Assembly: GCA_964016985.1 (NCBI GenBank)
Contig: OZ024833.1
Location: 61,376,963-61,440,962 of the forward strand
DNA length: 64,000 nucleotides
Reading direction: 5' to 3'
From: Anodontia alba
Lineage: Eukaryota > Mollusca > Bivalvia > Lucinida > Lucinidae
Each line of letters opens with the position of its first letter. Position 1 is the first letter of the stretch. The position numbers were made by a program, and so were the translations under genes. Shown here one piece after another: positions 6,883 to 63,351 of the stretch. Below the pieces are notes generated by a model, which saw only the letters and a list, made by a program, of their open reading frames with translations, was not told the DNA's origin and did no database searches.

Positions 6883-7236
6883 ACTGTATCCGACCTAATA
6901 ACCGCACTGTGAGCTTAGGTTTTTCAAAATTACTAGGAACACTCAGTTGTGGTAAAATATATATCTACCTATTAGGGGTACATTTAAAAAAAAATCAGAA
7001 AAGTACGTATTTGATGATGGTTATTCGATTTTTTGTCTGATTTTCTTTATAAAGGCATATATTGTGGGTACTCATTTGAATTGCATCGACAAGTCGATGC
7101 AATTCAAATGAGTACCCTCAACATATGCCTTTACAAAGAAGCAGACAAAAAGTGCACTTGCTGTAATCTGAAGACTGCGGAATTGCTTGACTGTACGCTT
7201 ATAGGGGTATGTGCGGTAATTAGGTCGAAAACGGTA
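6883..7236. mobile_element. CGACCTAAT MITE with central hairpin
   Basis: The left end TGTATCCGACCTAATAACCG pairs with the right end CGGTAATTAGGTCG...ACGGTA, next to TA dinucleotides, which suggests a Tc1/mariner-type TA target. The centre (about 7057-7130) is a long hairpin, ATTGTGGGTACTCATTTGAA with its complement; it resembles the PAL and pogo-like centres although the ends are unrelated. Confidence 0.75.
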
Positions 7237-7648
7237 TATTTAATGCCAGCAATGTAAACCCTAACCATGCGCACGCCTCGTTCTGTGGTACGGGCTCACT
7301 GTTTCTTTGTTCTTCTTGATCAGTGTCAATACAGCCAAAACCACTCTGCTTATTTCAGTTTTTTTTAATTTGTTATTCATGTAATAACGAACCCTACTTT
7401 GGAATGCAGCTGTCATTAGGTACTTGTTTGGAGACCATAAAACGTCACCCTGTAATTCAATATAGTGGTGACAATAGATAAATTGTCCCTTCCTTCGGGG
7501 CTATTGCGTCATGCATTGTAAAACCATGTGAAAGTAGAATTGCGCTCCAAACTGCATAGTGAAATGAGGTATTGCTCATTATTCTTCTTCAACATACTCA
7601 GACGTAAAATAGTCACAAAATTTTATTGTAAACACTATTACTTTTTAA

Positions 7649-7742
7649 ATGTTTCGTCGATTTAACAAAAGGCTTCTTCGATATGACATAGCGGAACCCG
7701 AGTTATACGCTGGTTTACTGTACAAACGCAAAAGAGCTGCTG
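7649..7742 (+). CDS. Possible first coding exon (31 codons plus 1 nt) ending at a splice donor
   Basis: An ATG opens a frame reading MFRRFNKRLLRYDIAEPE, then LYAGLLYKRKRAA, and runs without a stop into GCTGCTG|GTAAGACTT, a strong consensus 5' splice site. It is more codon-like and less AT-rich than its surroundings and lies outside any repeat. The start is very basic, which could suit a mitochondrial or cytoplasmic N-terminus. I do not recognise the protein. No downstream exon is identified in the window, so the call rests only on the open frame plus donor. Confidence 0.35.
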
Positions 7743-8087
7743 GTAAGACTTATTTTTCATAACATTTCAAAAAAGATAGTTAATAGATTTAAAACATGTT
7801 TCTAGAAATATTTAATCTGTTCGTGACATGTGTTCTGTCTCTCGTAGTTTGGGTGTTTTTTCATTCCGGTAGGCAATAATCTTTGATTATGTCCGGGACA
7901 GCTTTAATATTTTGCGACAATGTTAGGCTCCTTGTACAGTGTAGAAAATCCACGTGACCAAATGACTAGGTACACAGAGTGTGTTACTATTTTTAGCTCC
8001 GATCAGGTAGGGTTTGTAGAATAGCTCGATTTATACCTGATGGAATTTGTTCAAATGAAGCGTAGAGTACGCGGAAAATCAAGCTCT
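7743..8087. other. Unassigned, would be intron if the preceding exon is real
   Basis: AT-rich, with no repeat family or ORF recognised. Confidence 0.4.
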
Positions 8088-8262
8088 TTCTGGTGGTGTA
8101 AGCGCTATTCTGCAATCTGTTCTGATTCTCGAGAACATCGGAGAATGTGTTTCGTCAAAATTCATGTACATTGTCCCGGTAGCCCAGACTGACAGCAAAA
8201 ACATTCTTCGAATGTTCTCGAGAATTAGACCAAATCGCAGAATAGCGGTTATACCATCAGAA
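8088..8262. mobile_element. Short foldback MITE (175 bp)
   Basis: The left end TTCTGGTGGTGTAAGCGCTA pairs over about 55 bp with the right end TAGCGGTTATACCATCAGAA, including the motif TTCTCGAGAACAT. The PAL element at 8263 abuts it exactly. Confidence 0.7.
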
Positions 8263-8542
8263 CATCACGAAAACACACCTATATAATTTTGACCCCCTTA
8301 AACCCCACTTTTATATAGGAAAACTGGGGTTTACAGGGGTATACATTATTTTTCTTATTTCTGCTCAAAAACATAGATTGTGGGTACTCGTTAGAACCGC
8401 CTCGGCGAGGCAGTTCTAACGAGTATCCGTAATATATGTTTAGAGGAGAAATATGAAAAATATCAGATTTTTTTTATCTGAAAACTTCCAGTTTTAGGTA
8501 ATGAACTTTTCAGTATATTTGAATAGGCGTGTTTTCGTAATG
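8263..8542 (-). mobile_element. PAL MITE, full length (arm B first)
   Basis: Starts CATCACGAAAACACACC and ends GGCGTGTTTTCGTAATG. The right half of the palindrome is more diverged (GTATCCGTAATATATG), an exception to the usual arm identity. Confidence 0.92.
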
Positions 8543-8624
8543 GACTCCGATTCTTAGTTTAGCGCATAAGTACTTTTTCTCAGCCTCGGACTTATGTCTG
8601 ACCTTGGCAAACTTATTAGAAGAC

Positions 8625-8903
8625 CATTACAAAAACATGCCTATTCAAATATATAGAAAATTTCACCCAAAAAAGACTGAAAATTTTCAGATAAAAAACT
8701 CTGATATTTTTCATATTTCTGCGCAAAACATAGATTGTGGGTACTCGTTAGAACCGCCTCGGTGAGGCGGTTCTAACGAGTACCCACATTCTGTGTTTTG
8801 TGCAGAAATAAGAAAATTATTGTATATCCATGTAAACACCAGTTTTACTGTATAAAAGTGGGCTTTAAGAGGGTCAAAATAATACAGGCGTGTTTTCGTG
8901 ATG
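8625..8903 (+). mobile_element. PAL MITE, full length (arm A first)
   Basis: Opposite in orientation to its neighbour 82 bp upstream. Flanks are C and C, compatible with a 1-bp duplication. The palindrome is intact with centre CGGTG. Confidence 0.92.
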
Positions 8904-9029
8904 CAAATTAAATTATAACAAATATGGATGCATATATACCATATTTTTCCCCGATACGAAGTTTCTAAACTGTTCTAAGAACTAATACAATCTACTCACA
9001 GGAGCACAGTGAAATTTATACAGTGAACT

Positions 9030-9335
9030 ATTTACTACGACATCATTTGTTAAGGTTCTGGGTTATGATCAGGAGGTCGCGGGGTCGACACCCGGCTGAT
9101 CCCGCAACATTATTTTGTAGAGATTGATCAGGAAGCATTTTTCTACGGTCATTCTCTCCCTTCCGCTGATTCAGGAAGGGCAGTTGTCATTTTCTGGCGA
9201 ATTAATAGGTACTTTACTGGTTAACCGCTTTGATATAAGCCTGTCCAGGAAAAGTGTGGTTAGGTAAACTGACCGCGTCAACATGACCTTAATAGTGTTG
9301 ACGGGGCCGGAAAACGCCAAATCAACCAAATATGT
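9030..9335 (+). mobile_element. tRNA-derived SINE (type 1), diverged head
   Basis: Shares with the clean copy at 28.7 kb: AGGAGGTCGCGG, GTCGACACCC (B-box-like), TCTACGGTCATTCTCTCCCT, GGCAGTTGTCA, TAGGTAAACTGACCGCG and the tail CCAAATCAACCAAAT. The A box is eroded. It would be pol III-transcribed when intact. Confidence 0.75.
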
Positions 9336-9355
9336 TGCTGCGGCTTCAGATTGCT

Positions 9356-9427
9356 ATTTAAACCTCTACTTTAGTTCATCGCAGTTATACGATTTAAACC
9401 TCTACTTTAGTTCATCGCAGTTATACG
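9356..9427. repeat. Tandem duplication, 2 x 36 bp
   Basis: Two identical units beginning ATTTAAACCTCTACTTTAGT and ending GCAGTTATACG, at 9356-9391 and 9392-9427. Perfect identity implies a recent event. Confidence 0.9.
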
Positions 9428-9491
9428 ATTATTTGTGTTCTATTGCGATGCTTCACTGATGAGGTAGAGGACCATAAGCGGACCGAACACA

Positions 9492-9862
9492 TACTGTCGA
9501 ACCTATATGGCTCGAACATCTTTTGGATCATGGAAAATTCGAGACATGGGTAGTTCGAGCCACTGAGGGTTAATCATGGTGCAAGGTCAGAAAGTAGGTA
9601 GCGATAATTTCGGAAAGTCGTTTCGCTCTTCTCTACAATATTGGTATATTATTTGTACTCATTAGAATCGCCTCGATAAGGCGATTCTGATGAGTACGCA
9701 CAACAAACAATTTCATGGCAAAATCAGAAAATTTCCTTAAAAAAAGTGTTTTCTAGATCCATGGAAATATTTCGTAGGGACTCAAAAAACAAGTTCGAAT
9801 GATTCATGGTAAACGAGTCATCCGAGTTCGAGTTATTGAGGTTCGATTGAGGTTCGATTATA
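9492..9862. mobile_element. pogo/Tigger-like MITE
   Basis: Ends CTGTCGAACCTATATGGCTC and GGTTCGATTATA with flanking TA. The left third carries CGAGACATGGGTAGTTCGAG. The central hairpin at 9655-9705 is GTACTCATTAGAATCGCCTC followed by its complement with one change. No transposase is present. Confidence 0.8.
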
Positions 9863-9959
9863 TTTATAATTTGGAACTGCATCAGGATACATGCGAGGTG
9901 TCGATCGAGTAAAACTTTTTAAGCTCCCACCCCCATCCCTTAATAGTTGTTCTGCTGAC

Positions 9960-10108
9960 ATTTTCAAGGCGGTTCCTCTGTTGCACTTTTTTTGTTTGAG
10001 ATTATAACAATTGTGCCGATGTGTCTTGACATTGTTTCTTCCTCATCTTTTCTTCTTTCTGCACCTCGGGAATGCTATGCTATATGATTGTGGCTTTTCC
10101 CGGCTAAC
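9960..10108 (-). repeat. Dispersed repeat R
   Basis: Minus-strand copy: AAGGCGGTTCCTCTGTTGCA at one end and ATGATTGTGGCTTTTCC at the other, matching the plus-strand blocks near 4.3 and 63.9 kb. Confidence 0.6.
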
Positions 10109-10179
10109 TTCATTCATGTTTTTAAATAAGTAGCTGTCTATATATAATTGAGTCTTCCCTTTTTTGAGATGATTTGGGT

Positions 10180-10467
10180 TTGATGTGGGGTTTTATGGTC
10201 CAAGCAAAACTGTTTAAGTCATATCTAACCGGTGAGTTAACCTAAACAAACTGTTCCTGGCCAGCCGTAGTCCTCAAATCAGTCCGTTTTGCGAATACAT
10301 TTGCCAGTAGCTGACAACTGCATTTCTAGAACCGATCAAAGTTGGAAAAGGACAGTAGAAATTATTTCATAATCAATCGCCACGAAAGTTATGAGGCCAA
10401 GCTGGAATTCGAACGCGACCCTTGGATCTGCAGCAGACGCGCAACCGACTGCTCTATAGAGACCGGC
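10180..10467 (-). mobile_element. tRNA-derived SINE, minus strand
   Basis: On the minus strand a head with GAGCAGTCGGTTGCGCG (A-box region) and GCGTTCGAATTCC (B-box) is followed by the same tail block as other copies: TTAGGTTAACTCACCGG and GGACCATAAAACCCC. Confidence 0.7.
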
Positions 10468-10510
10468 TTCTTCATTTTATACAATATTGCTACATAAACG
10501 AATAAAAGAT

Positions 10511-10727
10511 TTAATTAAAAACAGATAACAACAAAAAACAAGAAAAAACATAAAAATAAACACACACATACACACAAAACAAAACAAAAAAAAAAACAAA
10601 AAAAACAAAAAAAAAAAAAAAAACAAACACCAACAACAACAACAACAACAACAACAAAAAAAAAACAACAACAAAAAAAAAAAAAAACAAAAAACAACAA
10701 CAAACAAACACATAACAAACACAAAAA
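10511..10727. repeat. A-rich / (CAA)n low-complexity tract
   Basis: Mixture of A runs, CAAAA, and (CAA)n. All poly-Phe/Cys/Val reading frames on the minus strand are translations of this tract. Confidence 0.9.
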
Positions 10728-16267: not shown

Positions 16268-16485
16268 AGACCTGTGTGACCACCAAAGACTCAGATCAGC
16301 CTGTACATCGAAGTATGACAAGGGTTCTCGTTAATCCTCTTTGGATAGCCCGGAGGCTGTAGAAGGCACATACGATTAGCGAAAACTCTGTTTAGACTGC
16401 GCGGATGCGCAAGATGATTTGAGTCTTCGCTGGTCGCAAAAGTCAAATTGTAGGATTTGTCATGCGCTGGCACGAATGTTGACAT
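16268..16485 (-). mobile_element. ACGAAGACTC hairpin-family element
   Basis: Contains CAAAGACTCAGATCAGCCTG, TTTGGATAGCC, a CTGCGCGGATGCGC core, GAGTCTTCGCTGGTCGC and CATGCGCTGG, the signature of related copies at 22.6, 23.7, 41.5, 48.1 and 62.8 kb. Confidence 0.6.
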
Positions 16486-17030
16486 ATTTTTTTTATTTCA
16501 CTACAAAGGCGCATGTTGTAGGTATTCATTAGAAGCGTCTTAGCAAAAAGCTATGAGATCCGTGGCATGTTTACCATATAATATGAAAAAAAAAAAAGAG
16601 ACATCTTTTGTTCATCAAGCATATTGAGAATGATATATTATGCATTAACAGAATGTTGCAATAAAAAGTGACAAGTTGGCTTAAAAAACTGTATTATTAT
16701 GAAAATTGTCCGAATAATGCAGACTCTACACACCCTTGTTTTCGCTATACATTACCGAGTAACATGGGTACATGTTATAAAGTCTTGTTAACGTAAAAAA
16801 TACTGGTTATCGAATATTGCAATGCATATTGCCGTCATTACTTCCTTCTCTCTCTTCCCAACGGTTTTAACAGATTCTAGCATTGCATATTGACTCACGT
16901 CATAAAAACACCTTTTTGTTTTACAATAATGCATCAATAGAACCTTTGGAAATCTTTTGTTTTACCCTTAGCGTCCCATAAGACTGGCAAACCATGCAGT
17001 CACAGATAAATTGCCAGAGAACTCACCATC
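16486..17030. other. Mostly unassigned; fragment of hairpin core at 16512-16550
   Basis: CATGTTGTAGGTATTCATTA followed by GAAGCGTC is half of a hairpin of the GTACTCATTAGAA type, with the second half missing. The rest is AT-rich. Confidence 0.4.
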
Positions 17031-17356: not shown

Positions 17357-18333
<977 letters not shown>

Positions 18334-20744: not shown

Positions 20745-21955
20745 ATATTGAGATTGCTCCATATGCTTGTGTTTAAAGCAACTTTACATGTACATTTAGA
20801 GCAACTGAATATTTAGTATTTAAATGGACTCACTATTATTAAATTGTATGAGAGGTTGGTTGGTTTGGAATTTTACAGTCCGCAAACCCTTGTTCTATAT
20901 GCTTGTGTTTAAAGCAACTTTACATGTACGTTTAGAGCAACTGAATATTTAGTATTTAAATAGACTAAGTGTTATTAAATTGTATGAGAGGTTGGTTGGT
21001 TTGGAATTTTACAGTCCGCTAACCCTTGTTCTGTATGCTTATGTTTAAAGCAACTTTACATGTACGTTTAGAGCAACTGAATATTTAGTATTTAAATAGA
21101 CTAAGTGTTATCAAATTGTATGAGAGGTTGGTTGGTTTGGAATTTTACAGTCCGCTAACCCTTGTTCTGTATGCTTATGTTTAAAGCAACTTTACATGTA
21201 CGTTTAGAGCAACTGAATATTTAGTATTTAAATAGACTAAGTGTTATTAAATTGTATGAGAGGTTGGTTGGTTTGGAATTTTACAGTCCGCTAACCCTTG
21301 TTCTGTATGCTTATGTTTAAAGCAACTTTACATGTACGTTTAGAGTAACTGAATATTTAGTATTTAAATAGACTAACTATTATTAAATTGTATGAGAGGT
21401 TGGTTAGTTTGGAATTTAACGGTCCGCTAACCCTTGTTCTGTATGCTTATGTTTAAAGCAACTTTACATGTACGTTTAGAGCAACTGAATATTTAGTATT
21501 TATTTGGACTGTTATTAAATTGTATGAGAGGTTGGTTTGGAATTTAACGGTCCGCAAACCCTTGTTTCATATGCTTGTGTTTAAAGCAACTTTACATGTA
21601 CGTTTTAGAGCAACTGAATATTTAGTATTTATTTGGACTGTTATTAAATTGTATGAGAGGTTGGTTTGGAATTTAACGGTCCGCAAACCCTTGTTTCATA
21701 TGCTTGTGTTTAAAGCAACTTTACATGTACGTTTAGAGCAACTGAATAGTTAGTATTTAATTGGACTGTTATTAAATTGTATGAGAGGTTGGTTGGTTTG
21801 GAATTTAATGGTTCGCTAACCCTTGTTCTATATGCTTGTGTTTAAAGCAACTTTACGAGTACATGCACGTTTAGAGCAACTAAATATTCAGTATTTAAAT
21901 GGACTGTTATTAAATTGAATGAGAGGTTGGTTGGTTTAGAGTTTTACGGCCCACT
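20745..21955 (-). repeat. Tandem array, 9 units (136 bp, later 128-132 bp), containing a SINE 3' end
   Basis: The landmark GCTTRTGTTTAAAGCAACTT starts at 20765, 20901, 21037, 21173, 21309, 21445, 21573, 21702 and 21834. Each unit includes GAGAGGTTGGTTGGTTTGGA, ATTTTACAGTCCGCTAACCC and TTTAGAGCAACTGAATATTT. The GGTTTGGAATTTTACAGTCC block is the reverse complement of the SINE tail (GGGCCGTAAAACC...CAAACCAACC). Units with 136-bp spacing are the most alike. Confidence 0.95.
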
Positions 21956-22050
21956 AACCTTATTTAAGTCATGTCGAGCCGGTCAGTTTATCTAACCCAA
22001 TTTTTCCTGGCAGACTTAGTCCTTAACCGGTTGACCGGTACAATGTACTC
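21915..22050 (-). mobile_element. SINE 3' fragment adjoining the array
   Basis: On the minus strand: GGACTAAGTCTGCCAGGAAA, TAAACTGACCGGCTCGACAT and GTGGGCCGTAAAACTC then CAACCAACC. This continues the partial SINE tail found in every array unit, so it is the probable seed. Confidence 0.75.
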
Positions 22051-22800: not shown

Positions 22801-23293
22801 ACGGCGCAATTTATAACGTAAATAAGTATCCTAAAATTCCCTCATAATATACATGTATAGCGAAACAAGTGTGTGTAGGGGTCTATTTTTTAAGTTTTTT
22901 TTATTCAGGATTTTACTGTTTTTAAACCCGATGTTGTGCATTTTGTTTATGTCGTATTCATTTAACTACAAAATAAATTGTTTTAATGCGTTTACATTTG
23001 TAGTAACTAAAATTGCCTTCATTTCCTTTATTTGGTGAAAATGCTTTAGACAAGAGAGCGGATATCAGAGGTAAAACGATATTATTTCTCCACGAAAACA
23101 TGATGTGTGTACTCCAAATGAAAACTCACAACCTGAATTGTCTTTTACGGTGAAATGAGAACAGTGTCGTTATAGAAAAGGCTTACCAAGGCCTATGACC
23201 AAGAAATATGTAATTTACAATCAAAACACTGGCAGCACTGGCGGGTCGATTGTCTATGAAAGTAGGCTGGGAATATGGTCTTGAACGTTTCAT

Positions 23294-26837: not shown

Positions 26838-27675
26838 AGTCTAGAGGACTTAATGGGGGTGTATTAATGACTTTGCTATGCGATTTTGCTTATGAATTTC
26901 CATCACGAAAACATGCCTATATAATTTTCACCCCCTTAAACCCTACTCTTATATAGTAAAACTGGGGTTTACAGGGGTATACATTATTTTTTTTTTCTGC
27001 TAAAAATATAGATTGTGGGTTCTCGTTAGAACCGCCTCACCACAATCTATGTTTTGAGCAGAAATATGAAAAATATCAGAGTTTTTTTATCTGAAAATTT
27101 TCAGTTTTTGGAGGTGGTATTGTCTATATATTTGAATAGGCATGTTTTCGTAATGTTTATAAACGCATATGTTGTTGGTACTCATTTGGATCGAGGTAAT
27201 TCAAATACGTACCAACAACTTATCGAGCCAATTTAAACTAGAGAGCGTGTTTCTGAAACACTATGCCCACAACTGTAAGTCTGAAAAAAAAAAGCATACA
27301 TATAATTCGATCAAATATTCATAAAAGTTCACTAAAATGTAATCAGGTCATCTACACATTAGTTCCAAACAGCTTAAAAAACTTCATGAGCTTAACTCAA
27401 ACAAAACGGATCAGCTAATTTTTCATAAGCAATGCATATATGAAGTTTCAAAATCCTCCTAACATACATGATTCCAAAGATATGTAAGTTCTCAAAAGCG
27501 TGATGTATGGACGGACGAGGGAAGGACGGACGGACGAATTAGTACATGTACCAGCAACATAATGCTATTATACGTATCGAATAAGATAAACGTACACAGG
27601 CTGTATTCTGAAGACGAAAAAATTGTTTGACAGTGCGCTTAGAGGGGTATGAGTGGAAATTAGGTCGAATACCGT
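26838..27675. mobile_element. CGACCTAAT MITE, interrupted by PAL and by unrelated sequence
   Basis: CGATTTTGCTTATGAATTTC then (after PAL) TTTATAAACGCATATGTTG, the hairpin TTGGTACTCATTTGGATCGA with its partner, and, past about 350 bp of foreign sequence, CTGTATTCTGAAGACG and GGAAATTAGGTCGAATACCG. All match the complete copy at 6883-7236 in order. The left tip is not visible. Confidence 0.65.
26901..27155 (-). mobile_element. PAL MITE with half-palindrome deletion, nested in a CGACCTAAT MITE
   Basis: Tips CATCACGAAAACATGCC and GGCATGTTTTCGTAATG. The palindrome is reduced to TTCTCGTTAGAACCGCCTCA then CCACAATC. The left flank ends GAATTTC and the right begins TTTATAAA; the 7.05-kb copy reads ATTTTCTTTATAAA, so there is no duplication here. 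Confidence 0.9.
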
Positions 27676-32238: not shown

Positions 32239-32289
32239 CATAGCTCTATAAAACAGGAGTATCAAAATAAGTATTGTTCGGTTATTTCG

Positions 32290-32372
32290 CAAAGAAAGTA
32301 TGTTATAAGTACTCATTAAAAGCTAATAAGTGCATACAAGAGAATCGCTTCTAATGAGTATCCCTAACATAC
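32290..32372. repeat. Imperfect hairpin of the ACTCATTA type
   Basis: AAAGTATGTTATAAGTACTC with ATTAAAAGC is matched by GCTTCTAATGAGTATCCC and TAACATACT. It is another variant of the shared hairpin core with a larger loop. Confidence 0.6.
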
Positions 32373-32471
32373 TGCATGTATTTTGTAGGAATATGAGAAA
32401 AATAGTCATATTTTTCGTTGAATAAATTGTCTTATTTAGGGCTTTGGCTAAGCATATACATTTCACATAGG

Positions 32472-33904: not shown

Positions 33905-34112
33905 GGACAATGTGCACTATGTTGAAGTACGGGAAGTCAAAGGACTTGTTTTGAATCTGTTTCCAAGCATTAGTTTTACTAGCGTAAGTTACTAGACTTC
34001 TTTTCTTCTACAATATACTAGTGTTGCGTTACTTTCTTTGGTCAGTATATAATCGGTCAACCCGCTTTATACCGACATTCGATATACCGACAAAATTTGA
34101 TATAGTGATGTT

Positions 34113-34327: not shown

Positions 34328-34592
34328 CAGGCACGAGACCTTCGCTCAAGAGGTGGCCACAAAAAAAAAATCAATAAAATGGTATTTCGTAGTTCAAGAA
34401 ACATACGTTTTGGATATTTGTTAGAATCGCCTCACTGAGGCGATTCTAACAAATGTCCAAAACAGATGTTCTCTGAGGATAGGAAAATATGCAAGAGCGT
34501 TTTACATACATTGTATCTCTCTGCTCAATAAGGATTCTTACCACAACAGCAAATTCATTTTAAAAGCAACATTTTTGGGAACAAACGCTGTC

Positions 34593-36156: not shown

Positions 36157-36435
36157 CATCACGAAAACACACCTATATAATTTTGACCCCCTTAAACCCC
36201 ACTTTTATATAGTAAAACTGAGGTTTACAGGGGTATACATTATTTTCTTATTTCTGCTCAAAAACATAGATTGTGGGTACTCGTTAGAACCGCCTCGGCG
36301 AGGCGGTTCTAACGAGTACCCACAATCTATGTTTCTGAACAGAAATAAGAAAAATATCGGAATTTTTTATCTGAAAATTTTTCGGTTTTGGTTGTAAAAT
36401 TTTCAATATATTTGAATAGGCGTGTTTTCGTAATG
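36157..36435 (-). mobile_element. PAL MITE, full length (arm B first)
   Basis: Canonical tips, A flanks on both sides, perfect central palindrome with centre CGGCG. Confidence 0.94.
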
Positions 36436-38593: not shown

Positions 38594-38776
38594 ATGCGTT
38601 GGCTAGTGAAGGTTCATATTTATCTTATGTCGTGTGAGACGTAAACATTCACTTGCGAATTCGAACAACATGCGAAGACATGACATGTGGATATGAATTA
38701 TACTCAGATTAGAGAATTATTGAGTAACAGCTAATGTACGTTTGCGTTAGCTGGGACGGGTAATGGATGCGAGGTA
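37600..38776. other. Repeat-poor stretch with microsatellites
   Basis: (CT)n at about 38045-38092, (AAT)n at about 38130-38172, (TTTC)n at about 38484-38525 and (TATC)n at about 38527-38592. No MITE tips. The Ser/Leu/Ile-Tyr repeat frame at 38434-38637 is a translation of the microsatellites. Confidence 0.7.
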
Positions 38777-39104
38777 CAATCGACTCTCGTTATCTCGAAT
38801 TCCAAGGGACTCTCTGAAATACTTCGAGATATCCGTATTTTGACATATCAGATTTGCAGAAATGAGGAAAAACTAATTCGATTAACTACATTTAACAAAT
38901 ATATGTGTAATTGGACTCTTGAAGTTAGACTTATATTGAAAATATGGAAAAGAGGAGAAATTGCTCCTTATGAGCAATTTCTCCCCTTTTCCATAATGTT
39001 TTTTACTTGTTGTTAGATTTTCATGTTTGGGCAGAGAACAGATTTTCACTTCGAGATAAGTGGTTATTCGAGATAAGTGAGTTCGAGATAGCGAGGATCA
39101 GCTG
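38777..39104. mobile_element. pogo-like MITE of a second subfamily
   Basis: TA-flanked ends CAATCGACTCTCGTTATCTC and GTTCGAGATAGCGAGGATCA then GCTG. The central hairpin is different in sequence: GGAAAAGAGGAGAAATTGCT with AGCAATTTCTCCCCTTTTCC. Confidence 0.8.
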
Positions 39105-39668
39105 TATTTTACACTAGTCTCAGCACATGTTTAGATTATAATAAACTATGTCGCATAAAAAAAGACAAACAAACTCTCCAAGTCGCTAGGAGATCCCTTA
39201 ACGCACACGTCTGATTATAGAAGCTACCTGAACCATTACGGAAAACATCGTATGCGGATGACCTGTTGAAAGTGCTCGGCTGTACAGACAAGCTGGCTTT
39301 GCTGTCTTTATACCGTTATTGACATAATATTGGAACACGTGAACTCCTTACCATACTTGTCCTAGAATTTGAACCAGTACATTTGACGTCCTGTTGGTTG
39401 ACGTGTTTAAAAACTGCACGTTTAGTGACACACGGTAATTACGCAAATTAGAATCCGCATTCTGCGGCGTCCGATCTGAGTCTACAAGGTATGCTCAGGC
39501 CTTTCTGTCCGAATATTTAGGCTAAATATGTTATGTGCCTAAAGTCCATTTTCAATAGCTTTCTAAATGTCATACCCTCAGAGGCATCATTAAAACAAAC
39601 CGCAACGTGATCGCATATGAATAAAGGGTCTCCCTTTGTTGTTCATTTTTACGTTTAAAGATTATTAA
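39105..39668. other. Unassigned; diffuse similarity to 47.7 and 60.9 kb
   Basis: ACTCCTTACCATACTTGTCC, AATTTGAACCAGTACA, CGCATTCTGCGGCGTCCGAT and TATTTAGGCTAAAT are shared with the two other sites, so an old hairpin-bearing repeat is present without clear ends. Confidence 0.4.
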
Positions 39669-41846: not shown

Positions 41847-42676
41847 AGATATGGAAATCCTGGATTTAACCCTAGGATAGAAATTTTTAACCTATCCAGG
41901 TTATCCTGCCCAGGGTAAGATAAAAATCGAGAATTCTCACGCGTTTGATATACACTAGTTGTAATGGACGTCACGTACGCCATCGTTAAGGTTTACGTCA
42001 CTGAGCGTAATGGCGTCATTAAACGCCACAGCAATGTCATCACAAGATAGCGTACGTCAGCAATCGAAGTGACTGCATTACTAAAAAGAAATCTATGTTC
42101 AGAAACGAAAGGTGTGCAAGAAACATAATCAATCATGGGTGTGAGGGCTAGATAGAAAAATCCGTCCCTCGCATTCAAAGTCTGGCATCACTCGGTAAGC
42201 CTCGTGATGCCAGACAGTGATCCTTGGGACGGATTTTTCTATCTATCCCTCACACTAATGATAGATCCATATAATCTATCATTGGTGTGATGGGTAGATA
42301 GAAAATTCCTTCCCGACGATCACTGTCTGGCATCAAGAGGCTTGCCGAGTGATGCCAGAATTTGATGGCGAGGGACGGATTCTTCTATCTATCCCTCACA
42401 CCCATGATAGATTCTTTAATTTGCACAACTTTCATTTCTGAACATAGATTTTAATACTGCAGTCCGCCATATTGTGATGGCATCACTGTGGCGTTTAATG
42501 ACGCCATTACGTTCAGTGACGTAAATCTTAACGATGGCGTACGTGACGTCCATTACAACCAGTGCTTATCAAACACATGAGAATTCTCGATTTTTATCTT
42601 AGTCTGTGTAGGATAACCTTTGTAGGATAAAGAACTCTATCCCAGGGTTAAATCCAGGATTTCCTTATCTGGTGTG
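41847..42676. mobile_element. Long foldback element, two arms of about 400 bp
   Basis: The left arm (from ATATGGAAATCCTGGATTTA) is the inverted counterpart of the right arm (ending TAAATCCAGGATTTCCTTAT). Matched landmarks: GAGAATTCTC, TAATGGACGTCACGTACGCC, ATGGCGTCATTAAACGCCAC, TCTATGTTCAGAAA, ATCATGGGTGTGAGG and GGGACGGAT. The centre is near 42,258. Each arm itself ends in a smaller hairpin with GATGCCAGACAGTG. No ORF. Identity of the arms is high but not perfect. Confidence 0.92.
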
Positions 42677-43090: not shown

Positions 43091-43441
43091 CAGTCGAACT
43101 TCAATAGCTCGAACACCGATAGCTCGTTTACCATGGCTAATAAAAACTCGTTTTTAGACCCTACAATTTTTTTTTCGATTGATTAAAAAAAAAAAAAAAA
43201 AGGAATAGGGGAATTCTCTGATTTTATCGTGAAATTGTATGTTGTGTGTACTCATTAGAATCGCCTCGATGAGGCAATTCTAATGAGTACACTCGACATA
43301 CCATTATCGTAAAGAAGATCGAAAACACCGTTTGCTTCCTGACTTTGCGCCATGGTAAACCCTCACTCGCTCGAACTACCCATGTTTCGAACAAATTTCT
43401 GTGGTTGCAAAGTTGTGGTTCGAGCCATTGAGGTTAGACTG
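43091..43441. mobile_element. pogo/Tigger-like MITE, complete
   Basis: TA-flanked CAGTCGAACTTCAATAGCTC and GAGCCATTGAGGTTAGACTG. Central hairpin (43250-43295) GTACTCATTAGAATCGCCTC with its complement around ATG. Confidence 0.9.
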
Positions 43442-44170: not shown

Positions 44171-44374
44171 TTAACCCTTGTCCTGCTGAAAAAATTAAGA
44201 TGCCACACCCACTTCTAACTTTCAGCCAATCGGATCACTTGATCAGGATTGCTGCTATAAATTCACGTACTTAATGTCATACAGTGCAGATCCAGATCTT
44301 CAGAAGCCTACTGATCTTGATCTTCACTGTTTGCAAAGACAGTGTATATCCGGGTTCAGCAGGACAAGGGTTAA
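44171..44374. mobile_element. TTAA-type MITE with near-perfect ends
   Basis: TTAACCCTTGTCCTGCTGAA and TTCAGCAGGACAAGGGTTAA are perfect inverted ends. The internal hairpin remnant is CAGTGCAGATCCAGATCTTC. Flanked by TTAA, as in piggyBac-like elements. Confidence 0.92.
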
Positions 44375-45047: not shown

Positions 45048-45405
45048 CAGTCGAACCTCGATGGCTCGAACACCGATGGCTTGTTTACCATGGCTAATTC
45101 AAACTCGTTTTTGAGTCCCTACGAAATTCTTCGGATAGCTCAAGAAAACAAATATTTAAGGAATTTTTTTTATTTTATCGTGAAATTGTATGTTGTGTGC
45201 ACTCATTAGAATCGCCTCATTGAGGAGATTCTAATGTGTACACTCAACATACAATCACTGTGTAGAAAATCGAAAAGGTTTCCCTAAATAATCGCTATTT
45301 GCTTCCTTAACTGGTGTCATGATTAACCCTCAGTGGCTCGAACTACCCATGTCTCGAACGAATTTCCATGGTCCCAAAGATGTTGGAGCCACTGAGGTTC
45401 GACTG
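45048..45405. mobile_element. pogo/Tigger-like MITE, complete
   Basis: TA-flanked CAGTCGAACCTCGATGGCTC and CCACTGAGGTTCGACTG. Hairpin GCACTCATTAGAATCGCCTC at 45199-45240. Probably the best-preserved copy of the family here. Confidence 0.92.
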
Positions 45406-46720: not shown

Positions 46721-46816
46721 TTATCATCATAATCTTTCCTTTCAAAGTAGACTTAAAAAAAAAAAAAAAAAGGAAAACGAAATGTGTGTATCGGGTATAT
46801 GAGTTTGCATTTCATA

Positions 46817-47159
46817 CAGTCAACCCTCGTTACACCGACACTCGTTAGAACGACAAAATTCGTTATAATGACAATTTGAATGTCACGAAACCTTCGCTTA
46901 AGAGGTGACAGTAGATGAGAAATTAGGCAAGAATATCGCATTAAAACTTCAAGCGACATATGTTTTGGATATTTATTAGAATCGCCTCACTGAGGCGATT
47001 CTAAAAATATCCAAAACGTATGTTCTGTGAAGACACAATAATAAAATAATGTCTTTCTTACATATTATTCTGTCCATTAAGGACTCTTTACAACAGCTGA
47101 TTCATTTTAATGGCAACGTCTTTGGGAACAAATGCTGTCGTTGTAACGAGGGTTCACTA
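46817..47159. mobile_element. GTTACACC-type MITE, complete
   Basis: TA-flanked CAGTCAACCCTCGTTACACC and GTTGTAACGAGGGTTCACTA. The centre at about 46965-47015 is TTATTAGAATCGCCTCACTG with GAGGCGATTCTAA. It is an empty-site reference for PAL at 34.6 kb. Confidence 0.9.
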
Positions 47160-47346: not shown

Positions 47347-47703
47347 TAGTCGAACTTCGATAGCTCGAACCCTTTTGGGACCTTGAAAATTTGTTCGAGA
47401 CGGCGGTAGTTCGAGCCACAGAGGGTTACTATTAGTGCCATACCAGGAGGCATATAGGAAATAATTGTGAGATATCTTTACGGTGTTCTATATTATAAAT
47501 GTATGTTGTGTGCACTCATTAGAATCGCCTCATCGAGGCGATTCTAATGAGTGCTCACAGCATACATTTGCAAGATAAAAGTAGAAAATCTCCCTAATTA
47601 TCCGTATATCGTATTTGGAGGAAATCCCTGCGGACTCAAAGAACGTGTTCGACTCATCCATGGTAAACGAGCCATCGGGGTTCGAGCCATTGAAGCTCTA
47701 CTG
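47347..47703. mobile_element. pogo/Tigger-like MITE, complete
   Basis: TAGTCGAACTTCGATAGCTC and GCCATTGAAGCTCTACTG. Perfect central hairpin GCACTCATTAGAATCGCCTC at about 47510-47555. Orientation is opposite to 43091 and 45048. Confidence 0.9.
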
Positions 47704-50630: not shown

Positions 50631-50984
50631 CAATAAAACTCTAATGACTCGAACACCGATGGTTCGTTTACCGAGACTGTTTCAAACTCGTTTTTGAGTT
50701 CCTGGGCATTCTTCTGATAGCTCAAGAACCAAATATTCAGGGATTGTTTAGGGAAATGTTCTTATTTTATCATTATAAAGTGTGCTGTATGCACCGTAAT
50801 GAGTCGATTCTAATGTGAACACTCAACATACCATTATTTCATAAAATATCGAAACATACATCCCTAAATTATCCCCATGTGTCTCCTGGCGCTAGGATTA
50901 ACCCACAGGGGCTCAAATTGCTATATCTAGACCATATTTCCATGGTTCCAAAGATATTCTAGCCATTAAAGTTCGACTATAATA
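50631..50984. mobile_element. pogo/Tigger-like MITE, hairpin half lost, right end hit by SINE
   Basis: CAATAAAACTCTAATGACTC and GCCATTAAAGTTCGACTATA. The central hairpin is reduced to GCACCGTAATGAGTCGATTC. The SINE immediately follows and duplicates TCGACTATA. Confidence 0.8.
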
Positions 50985-50987: not shown

Positions 50988-51326
50988 CGGCACAGTGGCT
51001 CAGTGGTAGAGCGTCCGCTTTGTGACCGGGAGGTTGCGGGTTCGATCCCCGGCCGGGTCATACCAAAGACCTTAAAAATGGTACTAGCTGCTCTTTCGCT
51101 TGGCGCTCAGCATTAAGAAAGTAGAGCTAGGAATCGGAACTGGTCAGCTCAGTGTCAGTATAATGTGACTGGGTGGAATATCATGTCAAAGTGTCTGGGG
51201 CATGATATTTCAGTGAGGCAGCACTCTAAAAGTGAGCATTGAGCTCCCTGTCACATCCAGACACCGTCGCGATATGACTGAAAGATTGTTGAAAGCGACG
51301 TTAAGCCCAAATCAAACAAACAAAAT
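50988..51326 (+). mobile_element. tRNA-derived SINE (type 4), complete
   Basis: Head GGCACAGTGGCTCAGTGGTA and GAGCGTCCGCTTTG (A box), GGTTGCGGGTTCGATCCCCG (B box). Body CTTAAAAATGGTACTAGCTG, GGAACTGGTCAGCTCAGTGT and GACACCGTCGCGATATGACT; end GCGACGTTAAGCCC with CAAACAAACAAA. Flanking TCGACTATA at 50973-50981 and 51327-51335. This is a SINE: the head is tRNA-like but the long body excludes a tRNA gene. Confidence 0.92.
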
Positions 51327-56809: not shown

Positions 56810-57165
56810 CAGTTAAACCTCAATAGCTCGAACACCGATGGATCGTTTACAAATGTATCATGGCCAATTCGAACTCGTTTTTTGTCTCTACGAAACTCTT
56901 CCGATAGCTCAATAAAACACATTTTCGGAAATTTTCTTTCTTCATGAAATTGTATGTTGTATGTACTCATTTGAATCGCCTTATCGAGGCGATTCTAATG
57001 AATACACTCAATAGACCGTTATTGTGTAGATCGAAAATATTTCACTGAATTATCGCCATTTTCTTCCTGACTTAGCGCCATGACTAACCCTCAGTGGCTC
57101 GAACTACCTATATCTCGTACAAATTTTAATGGCCCCAAAGATGTTCAAGCCATTAAGGTTTGACA
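56810..57165. mobile_element. pogo/Tigger-like MITE
   Basis: CAGTTAAACCTCAATAGCTC and GCCATTAAGGTTTGACAG. Hairpin GTACTCATTTGAATCGCCTT with its complement at about 56963-57005. Confidence 0.87.
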
Positions 57166-57828
57166 GAATAAGTAAAAATTCGACAAGGTTATTTGATACC
57201 TATTGGTCTCTCTGAAACTCCTGCATGAGTGGTAATCTTCATTAAGTCCGATCAGCCGCCGCGTTAACTATTTACTGTCTATCCGAATACAATTTCACTT
57301 ATTGTTCTTTCGACATCTTTCAGAAAGTCGTTTGTTTTTTGCTTGGCACTTCACACAGAAGTAAATTTGCAAATCTTTGTCATCATTTAATGCAAAACCT
57401 TTTGTCGTAACTTCCTGTGCACAAAAAGATTTATTCTAGTCATTGATTTTTAAAAAATCAACAATTCGTACAAGGTCAAAAATTGTTTTATTACACTAAA
57501 GTCTTACAATGGCAACTGCACTGACAGCAATGGCGTCATTAGATGCTTATATTACCTGCAAGGGTATTATTTCAAGACCATAACATGAAATGAGGTTACC
57601 GAAATGACGTGAGACGGTAATATTACTTGCGAGGGTAATAAATACTACAGGGTAGCTTGACATAATATTACCCTGCACGTGATATGCTCTCGACCATTGA
57701 GACCAATGAGATTTCTAGTTTAATGAATATTAATGAGGTATAATAATAGTCTTTGCACCGGACAAGCATCCGTCTCCAGCATTAAGCTTCCAATGGTCTT
57801 GCCTGTTACTTTATGTACTCGTTTGTAG
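57166..57828. other. Mostly unassigned; short inverted motifs around GGTAATATTA
   Basis: GGTAATATTACTTGCGAGGG and ATAATATTACCCTGCACG form a loose inverted pair near 57,620-57,690. The tail (57,790-57,828) is pyrimidine-rich and ends GTTTGTAG, a possible 3' splice site. Confidence 0.35.
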
Positions 57829-57999: not shown

Positions 58000-58576
58000 G
58001 TGCATCAAAGCAACCAGACTACTTCACCAGCTGTGCGTTTAATAATTGAAAACAATTTCAAGAAAAATATATTTTCTAAAGTGTCAAATGCGAGTGAATG
58101 AGCGATTTGATAAAGACGTTTTACCCTTTCAGGGTCGTTAATGTCTCAGTCAGTCTGTCATGGATCTGTGGCCTAATTACACCAGAGTTTTTGGTGATAA
58201 TTCATGGATACTTTATCTTATTTCTCCATAAAAGAATTATTTGGGGGTACTCATTAGAAGGCCTTTCCAAGGCGCATCTACTGAGTACAACCATCATATG
58301 TTTGTGGAGAACTAGAGAAAATTATCCCAGAATTATCATCAAATATCATCTCCTTAACAACTCTTCTGGAACCATGGAATTCAGAGGTAAAATGAAGATT
58401 AGTATACGCTTTGATACAATAAACATGACACTTGCATTGGTCAACAAGAACAATATATGTATGATATACAAAAAATAAGTATTGAAATACACAAGAGAGG
58501 TAATAACACATTAAATGTCTGTACTTGAGACGTTTCTCATTTTACAAGTTTGCGTTAACCTTCAAAGCGTTAACCA
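58000..58576. other. Unassigned, with a hairpin-core variant at 58244-58292
   Basis: GGGGGTACTCATTAGAAGGC with CTTTCC and GCGCATCTACTGAGTACAAC is a degenerate copy of the shared GTACTCATTAGAA hairpin. No terminal repeats are found around it. Confidence 0.5.
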
Positions 58577-58838: not shown

Positions 58839-58846
58839 ACAACTGC

Positions 58847-59200: not shown

Positions 59201-59368
59201 CCTAGAACATGACGTTTGACAAATTGTCTGAATAATATTACATATAACTCGCTTCAAAGACAGTGTATGGGATGACGTACATGTATGGAAGAAATCATTG
59301 AAAAAAAACAAACATAATTATTAATATTAAGCTTTGGACTTTATGCTAAAATAAGTATCCATCGTAAG

Positions 59369-59580: not shown

Positions 59581-59889
59581 GTCTAGATTTACACACATAA
59601 CAGTGTCCTGTATAGTTACGAATATAAGGTTCGATGGGAACATTACAATGGTTGAAGAAATGTAACAGTAAAATCCAAGGTATTTATTATCCTTGCCTAT
59701 TGTTACCATACGAAAAATAACAACTGGCACAAAAAAGCCTTACTTAACCTATATATCCAATGGATTTTACTATGCATACAGTTGACCTAATGAATTTAAT
59801 ATCTAAAGGGGCATCTTACAATATTGAGGTTTTTGTGTCTTAGGGATAATTGAATCTATCATTGGAACTATGGTAATCGTTGCTGGTGG

Positions 59890-60000
59890 GGGTCGGGGTG
59901 GGGTTGGATCGGGAAGCGTATATGGTCGTGCGAATTGCATCGCTGTACATGTATACGAGGAGACTTAATAAAACCGAGTCGCCGATTTTCATTCTTTCGT
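59890..60000 (+). repeat. Dispersed repeat R2
   Basis: GAATTGCATCGCTGTACATG and GAGACTTAATAAAACCGAGT then CGCCGATTTTCATT match 45.5 kb and the reverse of 33.5 kb. The preceding GGTGGGGGTCGGGGTGGGG is low complexity. Confidence 0.65.
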
Positions 60001-60464
60001 TATCTTTGATCTCTGATCTGGATCGACACTGTTTGCTAAGACAGTCGACCTTAATTAGTTGCATTGTAACACTATTTAATAACAGTTAAATAGCGGTCCT
60101 GTTGCTGTGAACGGCCTATTCATTCATGATTTCGCCAATTTACGCTACATTCTGACCACGTTAATCCTGTCAACCGTTTAGTTTTATTGATTTTGGCAAC
60201 CGCAATTTATTTCCAAATGTAGAATAAATCTTACAAAATTTAATTAAGTCAAGGGTACTTCTTTATTTCTATAGAGGTAGAAAAAATAATTGAACACAAT
60301 GAACGGAAAATACATTTTCTTGAGGAAGCAGCTGGAGAGAGTTAAGACGATGTGAGAAAACTGCAATTTGTTCCTCTAAAATGGATTCTACCTTTTGAGC
60401 AGCAATTTCTGAAAACAAACATTTGGGCATGTGCACCCAACGAAGACTCAAATCAGCCTGCGTT

Positions 60465-61195
60465 TCCGTTAAGGCTGTCACAATTAATCGGATAATCGAT
60501 TAATTGATCGATAAATTAAAAAAAAATGATTATCATTACAAATTTGCTTATAACCGATCATTTGATTTCTGTGCTTGCATTACGAAAACTCGCCTATTCA
60601 AATATACTGAAAATTTTACCACCAAAAAAAGAAAATTTTCAGAAAAAAAATTCTGATATTTTTCATATTTCTGCTAAAAACATAGATCGTGGGTACTCGT
60701 TAGAACCGCCTCGACGAGGCGGTTCTAACGAATACTCACAATCTATGTTTTGAGCAGAAATAAGGAAAATAATGTATACCCCTGTAAACCCCAGTTTTAC
60801 TCTATAAAAGTGGGGTTTAAGGGGGTCAAAATTATATAGGCATGTTTTCGTGATGGTTTCTTTACCGTATTTTTCCTTAGTATTCAGACACCTAAACTCC
60901 TTACAATACTTTATCTAAAATTTGAACAAGTACAATTTACTACCCAATGTTGTGTCTTAAAAAATAGCTGGATTGGTGGCAAACAGCATAGACCCTGATG
61001 AGACGCCGTATTTGCTCACGCTTGTCTTACCAAATGCATTCAATAAAGTATAACATCAGGTAAGAGTCATGCTCAGTCAGATAGGTAAAATTATTACTAA
61101 ATCTTCAGTGCTTACTATATTCGATTAACGATCAAAAAGGGAGCTGATATTCGATTACCATTTCAGGTCCGATTAGCCAGCCTTAGTTTCCGTGC
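60465..61195. mobile_element. AAGGCTGNC...TTAATCGG TIR element with a nested PAL
   Basis: Left CGTTAAGGCTGTCACAATTA and ATCGGATAATCGATTAA; right CGATTAACGATCAAAAAGG, TCCGATTAGCCAGCCTTAGT and TTCCG, inverted and imperfect. PAL lies at 60578-60855 and an old hairpin repeat (CATAGACCCTGATGAGACGC) near 60985. Confidence 0.5.
60578..60855 (+). mobile_element. PAL MITE, full length
   Basis: CATTACGAAAACTCGCC to GGCATGTTTTCGTGATG with G flanks. Intact palindrome with centre CGACG. Confidence 0.93.
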
Positions 61196-61197
61196 AG

Positions 61198-61352
61198 CTC
61201 TAACGAGTACCCACAATCTATTTTTTTTAGCAAAAATAAGACAAAAAAGAAAAATAATGTATACATGTACCCCTGTAAACCTCAGTTTTACTATATACAA
61301 GTAAAAGTGGGATTTAAGGGGGTCAAAATTATATAGGCCAGTTTTCATGATG
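61198..61352 (+). mobile_element. PAL fragment (right palindrome half and arm B)
   Basis: CTCTAACGAGTACCCACAAT, then arm B with extra ACATGTA and ACAAGTAAAAG insertions, ending GGCCAGTTTTCATGATG. The left half is absent. Confidence 0.85.
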
Positions 61353-61474
61353 AATATCAGCCCCTCATCAGTAAAAGTACATTGACACGTTTTTGCGCTA
61401 CCAAGATCCCGAGTTTATGAAATGGTCTTTTCCATAGTTGGATCTGGACATGTCCATTATTGCAAATGGGGATG

Positions 61475-61577
61475 TCAGTCATAACTCAAAACAGAATAAC
61501 AAACAGTGTTGATCCTGATGAGACAGCTCCGTCTCATCAAGATCTACACTATTTTCACAGGTATCTGAAAGGGTTAA
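61475..61577. mobile_element. Right part of a TTAA-type MITE
   Basis: AGTGTTGATCCTGATGAGAC, a shortened hairpin AGCTCCGTCTCATCAAGATC, and CTGAAAGGGTTAA. Same family as 39669. Confidence 0.65.
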
Positions 61578-61651
61578 TGTATTAATTTTATGCAACCTTC
61601 TGTTAACAACAACGTTTGAAGCAACTTTATCGGATGAACCTGTACTTTTCA

Positions 61652-61900
61652 TTAACTGTCTGGACACCTTCTACAACTGCTAAAACTCTTTTGGGTAAGT
61701 CGATTGTCAATATTTGTTTTTTCGTTTGTCAATAATTTTGAATATGCTGAATTTCCAATCATCAAAAAAGCGTTACGTTCAATATGTATTTCTTTGTACC
61801 AGCGTTTACAAAATTCTGTCAAAGAGCCATCAATTTCTCTCCGACATTTAGCGAAGCCAGTGTATGATGGGAATCTGTACTTAGGCTCCTTAGAAACCAT
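61652..61900 (-). CDS. Unrecognised protein-like frame
   Basis: Minus-strand frame reading EPKYRFPSYTGFAKCRREID, then GSLTEFCKRWYKEIHIERNA and FLMIGNSAYSKL. It has a balanced composition with Cys, Trp and charged residues, unlike the MITE shadows, and lies in non-repeat sequence. It could be an exon or a fragment of a transposon ORF. No family is recognised and no splice site stands out on that strand. Confidence 0.25.
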   Translation of the reverse strand: MVSKEPKYRFPSYTGFAKCRREIDGSLTEFCKRWYKEIHIERNAFLMIGNSAYSKLLTNEKTNIDNRLTQKSFSSCRRCPDS

Positions 61901-62197
61901 TCTAACACAATTCCCTTATGAGATTAAGAAATATTAACAACAAAGTGCAGCTGTTTTTCTTAATTGAACACGTTTTCTTCATGCGAGCGTGTAATTTCAG
62001 GTTGTTAATCTGACGCAAATGACTGCAATCTTTTATTGCGTCCAGTATGTGGTGATATTACTTTAACCGAATTTGAGATCTTTAGAATTCGTTTTGATAC
62101 ATCTTTGATACATTCGTGATGAATTCATTTTTTTATTGCGTCCAATATGTGGCGATATTTTTTTAACCGGCATTTGAGATCTTTAGAATCTAAACTT

Positions 62198-62456
62198 CAC
62201 ACAACACCTATATAATTTTGACCCCCTTAAACCCCATTTTCATATTGTAAAACTGGTTTACAGGGGTATACATTATTTTTCTTATTTCTGCCAAAAAACA
62301 TAGATTGCGGTTACTGGTTAGAACCGCCTCACTGAAGCCGAGGCGGTTCTAAGGAGTACTCACAATCTATGTTTTGAGCAGAAATATGAATAATCTATTT
62401 TTTTTCAGTGCTTGGAGGTGAAATTTTCTATATATTTGAATAGGCGTGTTTTCGTA
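62198..62456 (-). mobile_element. PAL MITE, tips eroded, palindrome altered
   Basis: Starts CACACAACACCTATATAA and ends GGCGTGTTTTCGTAGAGG. The centre reads GCCTCACTGAAGCCGAGGCG, a small insertion at the hairpin tip. Confidence 0.88.
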
Positions 62457-62778
62457 GAGGTACAACTTTAATCCGTTCGTGAAGAGTACACGAAACTTAC
62501 CATTATGATTTCGGCAGGATTCCAATTACGTTAAGAGCCCGAGATCTTTATGTTACGGTTAAGCACCATTAAATCAGACGAGAGGGTTTTCACGCCCGAT
62601 GTTTCTGATTCGTTTAGTCCGATTTCATTAAAAGTCTATGTGATAAGTGGATTAAGGACATCTAGGTCGAAACATACTGCTTAAAGAGGACCTTAATTCC
62701 ATATCGTCTGGAAACAGACGTTGAGCGACTGGTGTATAATTTGATTAAGCGCTCGACACTGTGACGAAAGGAACCGCA
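62457..62778. other. Unassigned sequence
   Basis: Nothing supported. Confidence 0.4.
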
Positions 62779-62992
62779 ACGTCAGAAACTTCTGACATGT
62801 GCGCCCAACGAAGACTCGGATCAGACTGCGCATTCGCGCAGTCTGATCAGAGTCTTCGTTGTTCGCATGAAGAAATTTGACATCCTTGGCTATCCAGATG
62901 CGCCCAGTGAATATTCTTATGAGACTGCGCGATTGCGCGGGCTGATCTGCATCTTCGCTGGGAGTACATGTCCGACGGTACGTTCCGACTCA
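62779..62992 (+). mobile_element. ACGAAGACTC hairpin-family element, best copy
   Basis: AACGTCAGAAACTTCTGACA, TGTGCGCCCAACGAAGACTC, the hairpin GGATCAGACTGCGCATTCGC with GCGCAGTCTGATCAGAGTC, CATCCTTGGCTATCC, GGCTGATCTGCATCTTCGCT and GACGGTACGTTCCGAC. The two half-hairpins give two nested stems. Confidence 0.75.
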
Positions 62993-63011
62993 CAGATACA
63001 AGTTGAAAGTA

Positions 63012-63351
63012 CAGTCAACCCTCGTTACACCGACACTCGTTAGAACGACAAAAATCGTTATAATGACAATTTGAATGTCACGAAACCTTCGCTTAAGAGG
63101 TGACAGTTAATGAGAATTTAGGCAAGAATATTGCATTATAACTTCAATCAACATATGTTTTGGATATTTGTTAGAACTGACTCACTGAGGCGATTCTAAC
63201 AAATATCCAAAACATATGTTCTGTGAGGAAACAAAAATAAAACAAGGTCTTTCTTACATATCATTCAGTCCATGATTCTTTACAACAGCAAATTTATTTT
63301 AATGGCAACATCTTTGGGAACAAATGCTGTCGTTGAAACGAGGGTTCACTG
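63012..63351. mobile_element. GTTACACC-type MITE, complete
   Basis: TA-flanked CAGTCAACCCTCGTTACACC and ACGAGGGTTCACTG. Centre TTTGTTAGAACTGACTCACT with GAGGCGATTCTAACAAAT. Very close to the 46.8-kb copy. Confidence 0.92.

Follow-up and report, generated by a model that had tools for sequence, protein, structure and literature searches.

In short interspersed nuclear elements (SINEs) of the CORE, V, Deu and Meta kinds, a central domain is common to families with different heads and tails. Miniature inverted-repeat transposable elements (MITEs) of the pogo superfamily (Tc1/mariner) have a TA target and ends of the form CAGT.., and the Angel elements of fish are said to have given rise to a hairpin model of MITE amplification. 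Among P-MITEs of Anopheles gambiae, P-element ends enclose an interior unrelated to any P element, and the authors propose that an internal deletion was repaired from ectopic sequence and that stable secondary structure could favour transposition (PMC1562414). Here, we analyse a stretch of 64,000 bases from Anodontia alba (C14:61376963-61440962, hereafter the window; 36% GC, with short open frames), together with the whole genome of 1,862,613,979 bases in 317 contigs. A first-pass annotation of the window had described related hairpins at the centres of four MITE families, PAL, pogo-like, GTTACACC and CGACCTAAT (the last labelled CGAC for short), and in three "orphan" hairpins at 16512, 32290 and 58244, and had suggested a hairpin module that moves between transposons. 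We confirm that one hairpin of about 120 bases sits centrally in several MITE families with differing ends.

Like P-MITEs, the elements of the window are chimeric, with a foreign interior between transposon ends; P-MITEs, however, have one superfamily of ends and 8-bp target sites, and the part of their description considered here mentions no interior shared under different kinds of ends. The likeness to SINEs lies in one central domain with differing termini, but SINEs are retroposons with exchange at the RNA level, whereas the present elements are inverted-repeat DNA with a palindromic centre. The pogo-like and GTTACACC families agree with pogo-superfamily MITEs in their ends and TA flanks, and the genome contains DDE_1 (pogo-type) transposases with long open frames (at least 151 matches, with 150 of 581 candidates scored); they are unlike other pogo-superfamily MITEs in that their interior hairpin is common to families with other ends. 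The Angel model reportedly also holds that the hairpin matters for amplification but calls for no particular sequence. Among the titles and abstract beginnings listed by searches of the open-licence literature, none concerned a hairpin common to MITEs with different ends. The present case is best filed with the chimeric MITEs already known, with the difference that one palindromic interior stands here under several kinds of ends.

The motifs named in the first-pass annotation were found where it had placed them, and the relationship between the hairpins held up. Using the 26 two-armed PAL hairpins of the window, a profile of 60-nt PAL arms was built and run against the window with PAL hairpins masked and against 50 dinucleotide-shuffled windows. 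It returned 30 matches at E<=1, of which 28 scored above 9.3 bits, the best value in any shuffled window; the similarity thus survives the shuffled-sequence control by which the annotation had proposed to judge it. By position, the 28 matches comprise nine pogo-like arms, six GTTACACC arms, two CGACCTAAT arms, four orphan arms (58211, 58323, 32402 and 16485), one arm at 23081 and six apparent PAL fragments that the mask had missed, so that each proposed relative is represented above every shuffle match. Sensitivity of the PAL-only profile was incomplete (one pogo-like arm scored 7.1 bits, and some arms were absent from the match list), and a profile built without PAL added arms at 4652, 50800, 51791, 27157 and 32272.

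The shared unit proved longer than the annotated common core. When hairpins were aligned from the apex, identity between families was 0.74-0.75 at 1-20 nt, 0.56-0.61 at 21-60 nt and 0.42-0.49 beyond, where shuffled sequences gave 0.43-0.47. Compared with 20 block-shuffled versions that kept local composition, identity at 31-60 nt exceeded the highest control (by a small margin at 31-40), and more than 60 nt from the apex it never did, which puts the shared stretch at about 58-60 nt per arm. Left-right symmetry within elements, examined in PAL and in pogo-like, GTTACACC and CGAC copies pooled, fades near the same distance. Since between-family similarity and arm symmetry end together, the common unit is approximately the whole palindrome, roughly 120 bp.

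Outside this unit, the families differ in several respects. The PAL consensus is 278 bp long, and its terminal inverted repeat (TIR) and other end are given in Table 1 for the copy at 36157..36435. A 1-bp target duplication was present in 15 of 26 PAL copies (permutation p 0.00055); 1-bp flank matches occurred in 27 of 44 (0.61; null 0.26), without clear signal at 2 bp or more, and PAL lacks the TA duplication of pogo-type elements (2-bp match 0.33 versus 0.29). A 1-bp target duplication seems unusual for a DNA transposon. Pogo-like copies (351-358 bp in three with clean ends) start with CAGT in ends CAGTCGAACCTC; among 10 rows, several of which are off-end or duplicate matches, TA adjoins the left end in 7 and the right end in 4. 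The GTTACACC copies (334-343 bp) also start with CAGT, in ends CAGTCAACCCTCG, and have TA/TA flanks in 3 of 3 cases; both families therefore combine CAGT ends with a TA target duplication. The CGACCTAAT ends run on to TACCGTATTCGACC or a near form adjoining TA (five full-length rows; four of nine rows, spurious or duplicate, were dropped), with 325-367 bp between CGACC motifs. The annotated contrast of unrelated ends consequently stands for PAL and CGACCTAAT, whose ends are distinct, but not for pogo-like and GTTACACC, which both show CAGT beside TA and are not clearly unrelated. The left end of GTTACACC copies (46815-46870 and 63010-63065) contains three spaced copies of a motif, one of which is ACTCGTTAGAAC, 12 bases of the PAL core. 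At 50989-51060, a tRNA-Thr (TGT) gene directly adjoins a pogo-like terminus at 50968.

Relatives elsewhere in the genome were sampled in 18 loci of 10 kb, one on each of 18 large contigs and all at one coordinate. These contained 51 hairpins or arms, many with other ends, which corresponds to a genome total on the order of 5 x 10^5 hairpins or arms if the sample is representative. Two further hairpin MITEs with a related core, Y and X, recurred. The Y element has TIR CATAGCNNCAGATAAG and arms ..GAGGGGGTATCCACATAATATTTTTCTTATTTCTCCACGAAAACATATGTTGTGGGTACTCATTAGAAG; of 20 candidate copies, most were 187-196 bp long, 18 rows fell within 183-212 bp, and one (45134-45321, within a pogo-like MITE) was false. 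Eight of 19 Y copies were flanked, no more than 1 nt from their ends, by direct repeats of 5-10 bp (10, 8, 7, 6, 6, 6, 5 and 5 bp; shorter in the other 11), whereas swapping flanks between copies gave a mean of 0.5 and at most five in 2,000 shuffles. Target repeats of varying length (seen in loci L032-L039 and others) are odd for a cut-and-paste element. In X, arms ..TTAAGGAGGAGTATTTGATGATAATTCTGGGATAATTTTC.. precede the same core as in Y, and the X/Y consensus core is CATTAGAAG. PAL, pogo-like, GTTACACC, CGAC and Y are all short elements with terminal inverted repeats, as expected of MITEs. At L022:7559-7800, the arm motif ..CATGTTGTGGGTACTCATTAGAAGCACCTAACAA.. appears, by eye, as about five direct rather than inverted tandem copies.

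These elements change the picture of the orphans. Both arms of 58244 class as X, and 32290 is probably a decayed Y, with four mismatches to the Y end at each terminus (the limit of the search) and one outer arm clustering with a Y arm; this leaves only 16512 as an orphan. They also extend the annotated division into TA and 1-bp target sites, both of which were seen, by a class of 5-10 bp for Y. Target sites of TA, 1 bp and 5-10 bp argue that several transposases moved one core, and the combination of different ends with target sites of different length argues for replacement of the ends and not for drift alone.

Core words were counted genome-wide (1.86 Gb) as exact matches on both strands, and every reversed-pattern control gave 0 matches. 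The PAL core 20-mer occurred 163,539 times, the Y/X 28-mer 18,080 times, the pogo-like core 20-mer 16,710 times, the CGACCTAAT core 20-mer 6,397 times and the GTTACACC core 23-mer 5,789 times. PAL ends were linked to a PAL core in 100,304 cases and to a Y core in 22; Y ends were linked to a Y core in 13,574 cases and to a PAL core in 151. The 22 PAL-end/Y-core matches were read over their first 80 letters: 19 started as PAL arms, one was a Y adjoining an unrelated PAL-like word, and two read as Y elements starting within a PAL left arm (C12:11885869 and C13:5682644). Letters were at hand for 78 of the 151 Y-end/PAL-core rows; two of these resemble Y arms and the rest PAL arms, nearly all of the latter being PAL left arms in which CAGATAAA had changed to CAGATAAG. 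From these counts, it follows that ends and core are inherited together. The mobile-module interpretation is thus borne out in that one hairpin lies within MITEs of different ends and target-site lengths, but free movement is not (22 PAL ends with a Y core versus 100,304 with a PAL core). We conclude that the module does not move often, and that there were few founder events in which the hairpin gained new ends.

The two arms behave differently within and between families. In the 26 PAL copies, 152 changes affected one arm only, five affected both arms differently and three affected both alike, with 3.1 expected from shuffled arms. Arm-to-arm compensation is therefore absent from inserted PAL copies, which look neutral, and this argues against selection on individual copies; conversion between arms of inserted copies was likewise not seen. 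Between families, a test of 18 chosen hairpins (four PAL, five pogo-like, three GTTACACC, one CGAC, two X and three Y) found both sides changed in 34 of 53 pairs and in 106 cells, where shuffled sequences gave 43 cells and slid ones no more than 31. Over the inner 32 nt, the two consensus arms of a family are 0-0.06 apart, and the mean difference between families is 0.21. Near-identical arms within families and concerted change between them indicate that each founder had its own nearly perfect palindrome. Selection for the hairpin in active copies, or remaking of the hairpin from one arm at founding, would each explain the concerted arms. Stronger conservation of the core within PAL was considered and turned out to be only modest. 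Reading the core as a CENP-B box, an idea prompted by one 12-mer common to the GTTACACC end, was dropped, as the X/Y core is without it.

Median arm divergence from the family consensus (50-53 arms per side for PAL, 3-10 for each other family) was 0.04-0.06 for PAL, 0.06-0.07 for CGAC, 0.08-0.09 for GTTACACC, 0.09-0.13 for pogo-like, 0.11-0.12 for Y and 0.13 for X. PAL is the youngest family; how the others rank in age is uncertain. By core distance, the right PAL arm (PAL-R) is nearest Y (0.13-0.15), CGAC is nearest X (0.19-0.20) and the left pogo-like arm is nearest Y-R (0.19). Outside the palindrome, the best four of 24 comparisons were CGAC-L/X (p 0.0025), PAL-R/Y-L (0.06), PAL-L/Y-R (0.09) and pogo-R/X (0.10), CGAC-L/X alone being strong (about 0.06 once corrected for the 24 tests). 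Four versions of the test gave p values that varied with the control, the third version having let in a few core bases; the values were, in order, 0.03, 0.003, 0.003 and 0.0025 for X/CGAC-L; 0.065, 0.03, 0.064 and 0.097 for X/pogo-R; 0.21, 0.017, 0.0185 and 0.06 for PAL-R/Y-L; and, for PAL-L/Y-R, not among the listed best, 0.17, 0.004 and 0.09. A comparison of outer-arm profiles built from few X/Y copies revealed nothing clear between families. The similarities give a hint, from sequence comparison, that X/Y elements rather than a bare hairpin were taken up by other families.

The explanation that we favour, and to which we give about an even chance, is that an X/Y hairpin MITE supplied the interior of other MITEs, whose founders were then amplified. 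The abundant hairpin MITE class made up of Y (about 190-195 bp) and X, or a common ancestor of the two, would be the source, and PAL, CGACCTAAT, pogo-like and GTTACACC would carry a relative of its hairpin inside other ends. X/Y may have been copied into another transposon as filler sequence when gap repair following an excision aborted, or may have inserted into it (a nested arrangement of Y inside a PAL arm exists, in the two cases given above); the outer transposase would then have amplified the internally replaced product, and each family would descend from one or a few such founders. A stable central hairpin might, more tentatively, help a short element to amplify. A pogo-like MITE at 38775-39106 (ends TACAATCGACTCTCG / TACAGCTGATCCTCG) has a central hairpin of another sequence at 38966, as expected if what has value is structure rather than sequence.

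Several observations weigh against donation by X/Y. Beyond the palindrome, the flanks of PAL and pogo-like show weak homology to Y/X (p 0.06-0.10); PAL-L is nearer X (0.28) than Y (0.30-0.33) in an ungapped alignment in which it is shifted by one base; and the GTTACACC core is far from all others, about equidistant from X and Y. The order of events is weak: pogo-like divergence overlaps that of X and Y, families other than PAL have 3-10 arms per side, and Y was still moving once PAL existed, as the two Y-in-PAL nests show. No transitional copy was seen; the 19 of 22 PAL-end/Y-core matches that start as PAL arms are possible mutants or remnants of an intermediate, and in a sample of 65 PAL arms, the first core change occurs twice and the second never. 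The outer ends and target site of X are not settled. As to concerted arms, the between-family test took its structure from one of the sequences tested, and relatedness inflates the excess over shuffles; further pair types were not unusual, 44 of 500 shuffles reaching the observed value in this one of five measures.

Among the alternatives, the one that we take most seriously, while still doubting it, is that a single MITE lineage changed its ends serially, losing and gaining terminal sequence step by step from Y/X towards the others or in the opposite direction, without donation between transposons. The first-pass annotation had named gradual descent from one element as the finding that would overturn its own proposal, and partial support comes from the top four of the 24 outside-palindrome similarities, which are side-specific (p 0.2-0.9 for the other sides of PAL and CGAC). 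Side-specific similarity is, however, equally expected if an entire X/Y element was captured, and differing target-site classes need new terminal sequence to arrive as a unit. Graded ends, moreover, were not seen in the loci and rows examined, the genome not having been searched exhaustively for them. It is unlikely that the hairpin is a portable cis amplification module that turns any ends into a high-copy MITE, unrelated transposases having time and again raised a successful MITE around this one palindrome, which was re-made perfect at each founding.

That a host or transposase protein binds a site in the hairpin, which thereby promotes amplification and is selected in active copies, appears a little less plausible still. 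Arms concerted between families and drifting uncompensated in inserted PAL copies would fit upkeep of the palindrome in the active lineage, and the GTTACACC terminus contains the PAL-core 12-mer noted above; yet this 12-mer is absent from the X/Y consensus core, the PAL core varies only modestly less than the arms and roughly as much as the left TIR, and concerted arms also follow if the founder hairpin was re-made from one arm. We find it very improbable that the hairpins are maintained because they yield double-stranded or small RNA. The folds of all six hairpins tested are far more stable than those of 200 shuffles (z -8 to -20), as would be the case for any palindrome, but only a tRNA reaches the Rfam gathering score in the window, no microRNA family does so for the window or for one PAL hairpin, and the 38 sub-threshold matches to one hairpin, many to microRNA models, look generic; the lack of arm compensation in PAL copies points the same way. 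Chance similarity or convergence of short AT-rich palindromes could be imagined, palindromes being common in the window and a second, unrelated hairpin family being present, but it is refuted, to the extent that we assign it practically no weight, by shuffled windows and reversed-pattern genome controls without a comparable match.

The features of the window are collected in Table 1. Hairpin centres lie at about 9675, 43268, 44476, 45219, 47532 and 56983 for pogo-like copies, at about 34434, 46989 and 63185 for GTTACACC and at about 7091 for CGACCTAAT.

Table 1. Coordinates of hairpin-bearing elements and related features in the window
Feature	Position	Strand	Details
PAL MITE, well preserved, 279 bp	36157..36435	-	TIR CATTACGAAAACACGCC / CATCACGAAAACATGCC; 1-bp target duplication in family
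Hairpin core of the same PAL copy	36243..36353		
CGACCTAAT MITE	6882..7236		Ends TACTGTATCCGACC.. / ..GGTCGAAAACGGTA; hairpin 7041-7150
Hairpin of second, decayed CGACCTAAT-like copy	27157..27223		PAL inserted alongside
Pogo-like MITE	43091..43441		CAGT ends, TA flanks; hairpin 43211-43328
Pogo-like MITE	45048..45405		Hairpin 45159-45278
Pogo-like MITE, opposite orientation	47347..47703		Hairpin 47475-47593
Pogo-like MITE	56810..57166		Hairpin 56932-57043
Hairpin of pogo-like copy near 9494-9860	9616..9737		
GTTACACC MITE	46817..47159		CAGTCAACCCTCG ends, TA/TA; hairpin 46938-47047
GTTACACC MITE	63012..63351		Hairpin 63125-63240
Hairpin of older GTTACACC copy	34390..34490		Left end near 34052
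Orphan 58244, X-type MITE hairpin	58206..58324		Both arms class as X; arms extend outward as TTTGATGATAATTC
Orphan 32290, probably decayed Y-type MITE	32239..32446		4 mismatches to Y end at each end
Orphan 16512	16485..16540	+	One clear arm; partner arm decayed
Decayed arm absent from first-pass list	4652..4702	+	
Second hairpin family	25428, 30785, 35754, 39806, 46238, 52586, 56023, 61524, 62831		

The second hairpin family (CAAACAGTGTAGACCC.GATCAGAC.. and relatives) is short, is without evident longer ends and, by eye, also interrupts a pogo-like copy near 44300. Other repeats of the window include a palindrome at 42089-42451 (178-nt arms, 88% complementary, 7-nt spacer), a satellite-like array of nine copies of a 136-bp unit at 20754-21959, and fragments at 17357-18206 that resemble reverse transcriptase (identified by eye only) around long (AT)n and (TAT)n runs. 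Searches of wider collections with the core pattern gave 0 matches in viral contigs and one in bacterial contigs, which had no inverted partner in the 140 bases examined. The PAL protein had four pattern matches in viral contigs and no confirmed locus there; in protein collections, which provide no genomic context, the PAL translation had 2,865 matches, the pogo-like translation 28 and that of orphan 58244 none.

Why a few MITEs become so extremely numerous, and from where they obtain their interiors, are open questions. Here, one interior, with more than 10^5 exact core words, can be traced through families of three target-site classes in one genome, which makes it possible to test both the capture of interiors and the value of a central hairpin. 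A warning follows for classification, in that a common interior sequence does not show that MITE families have a common transposase.

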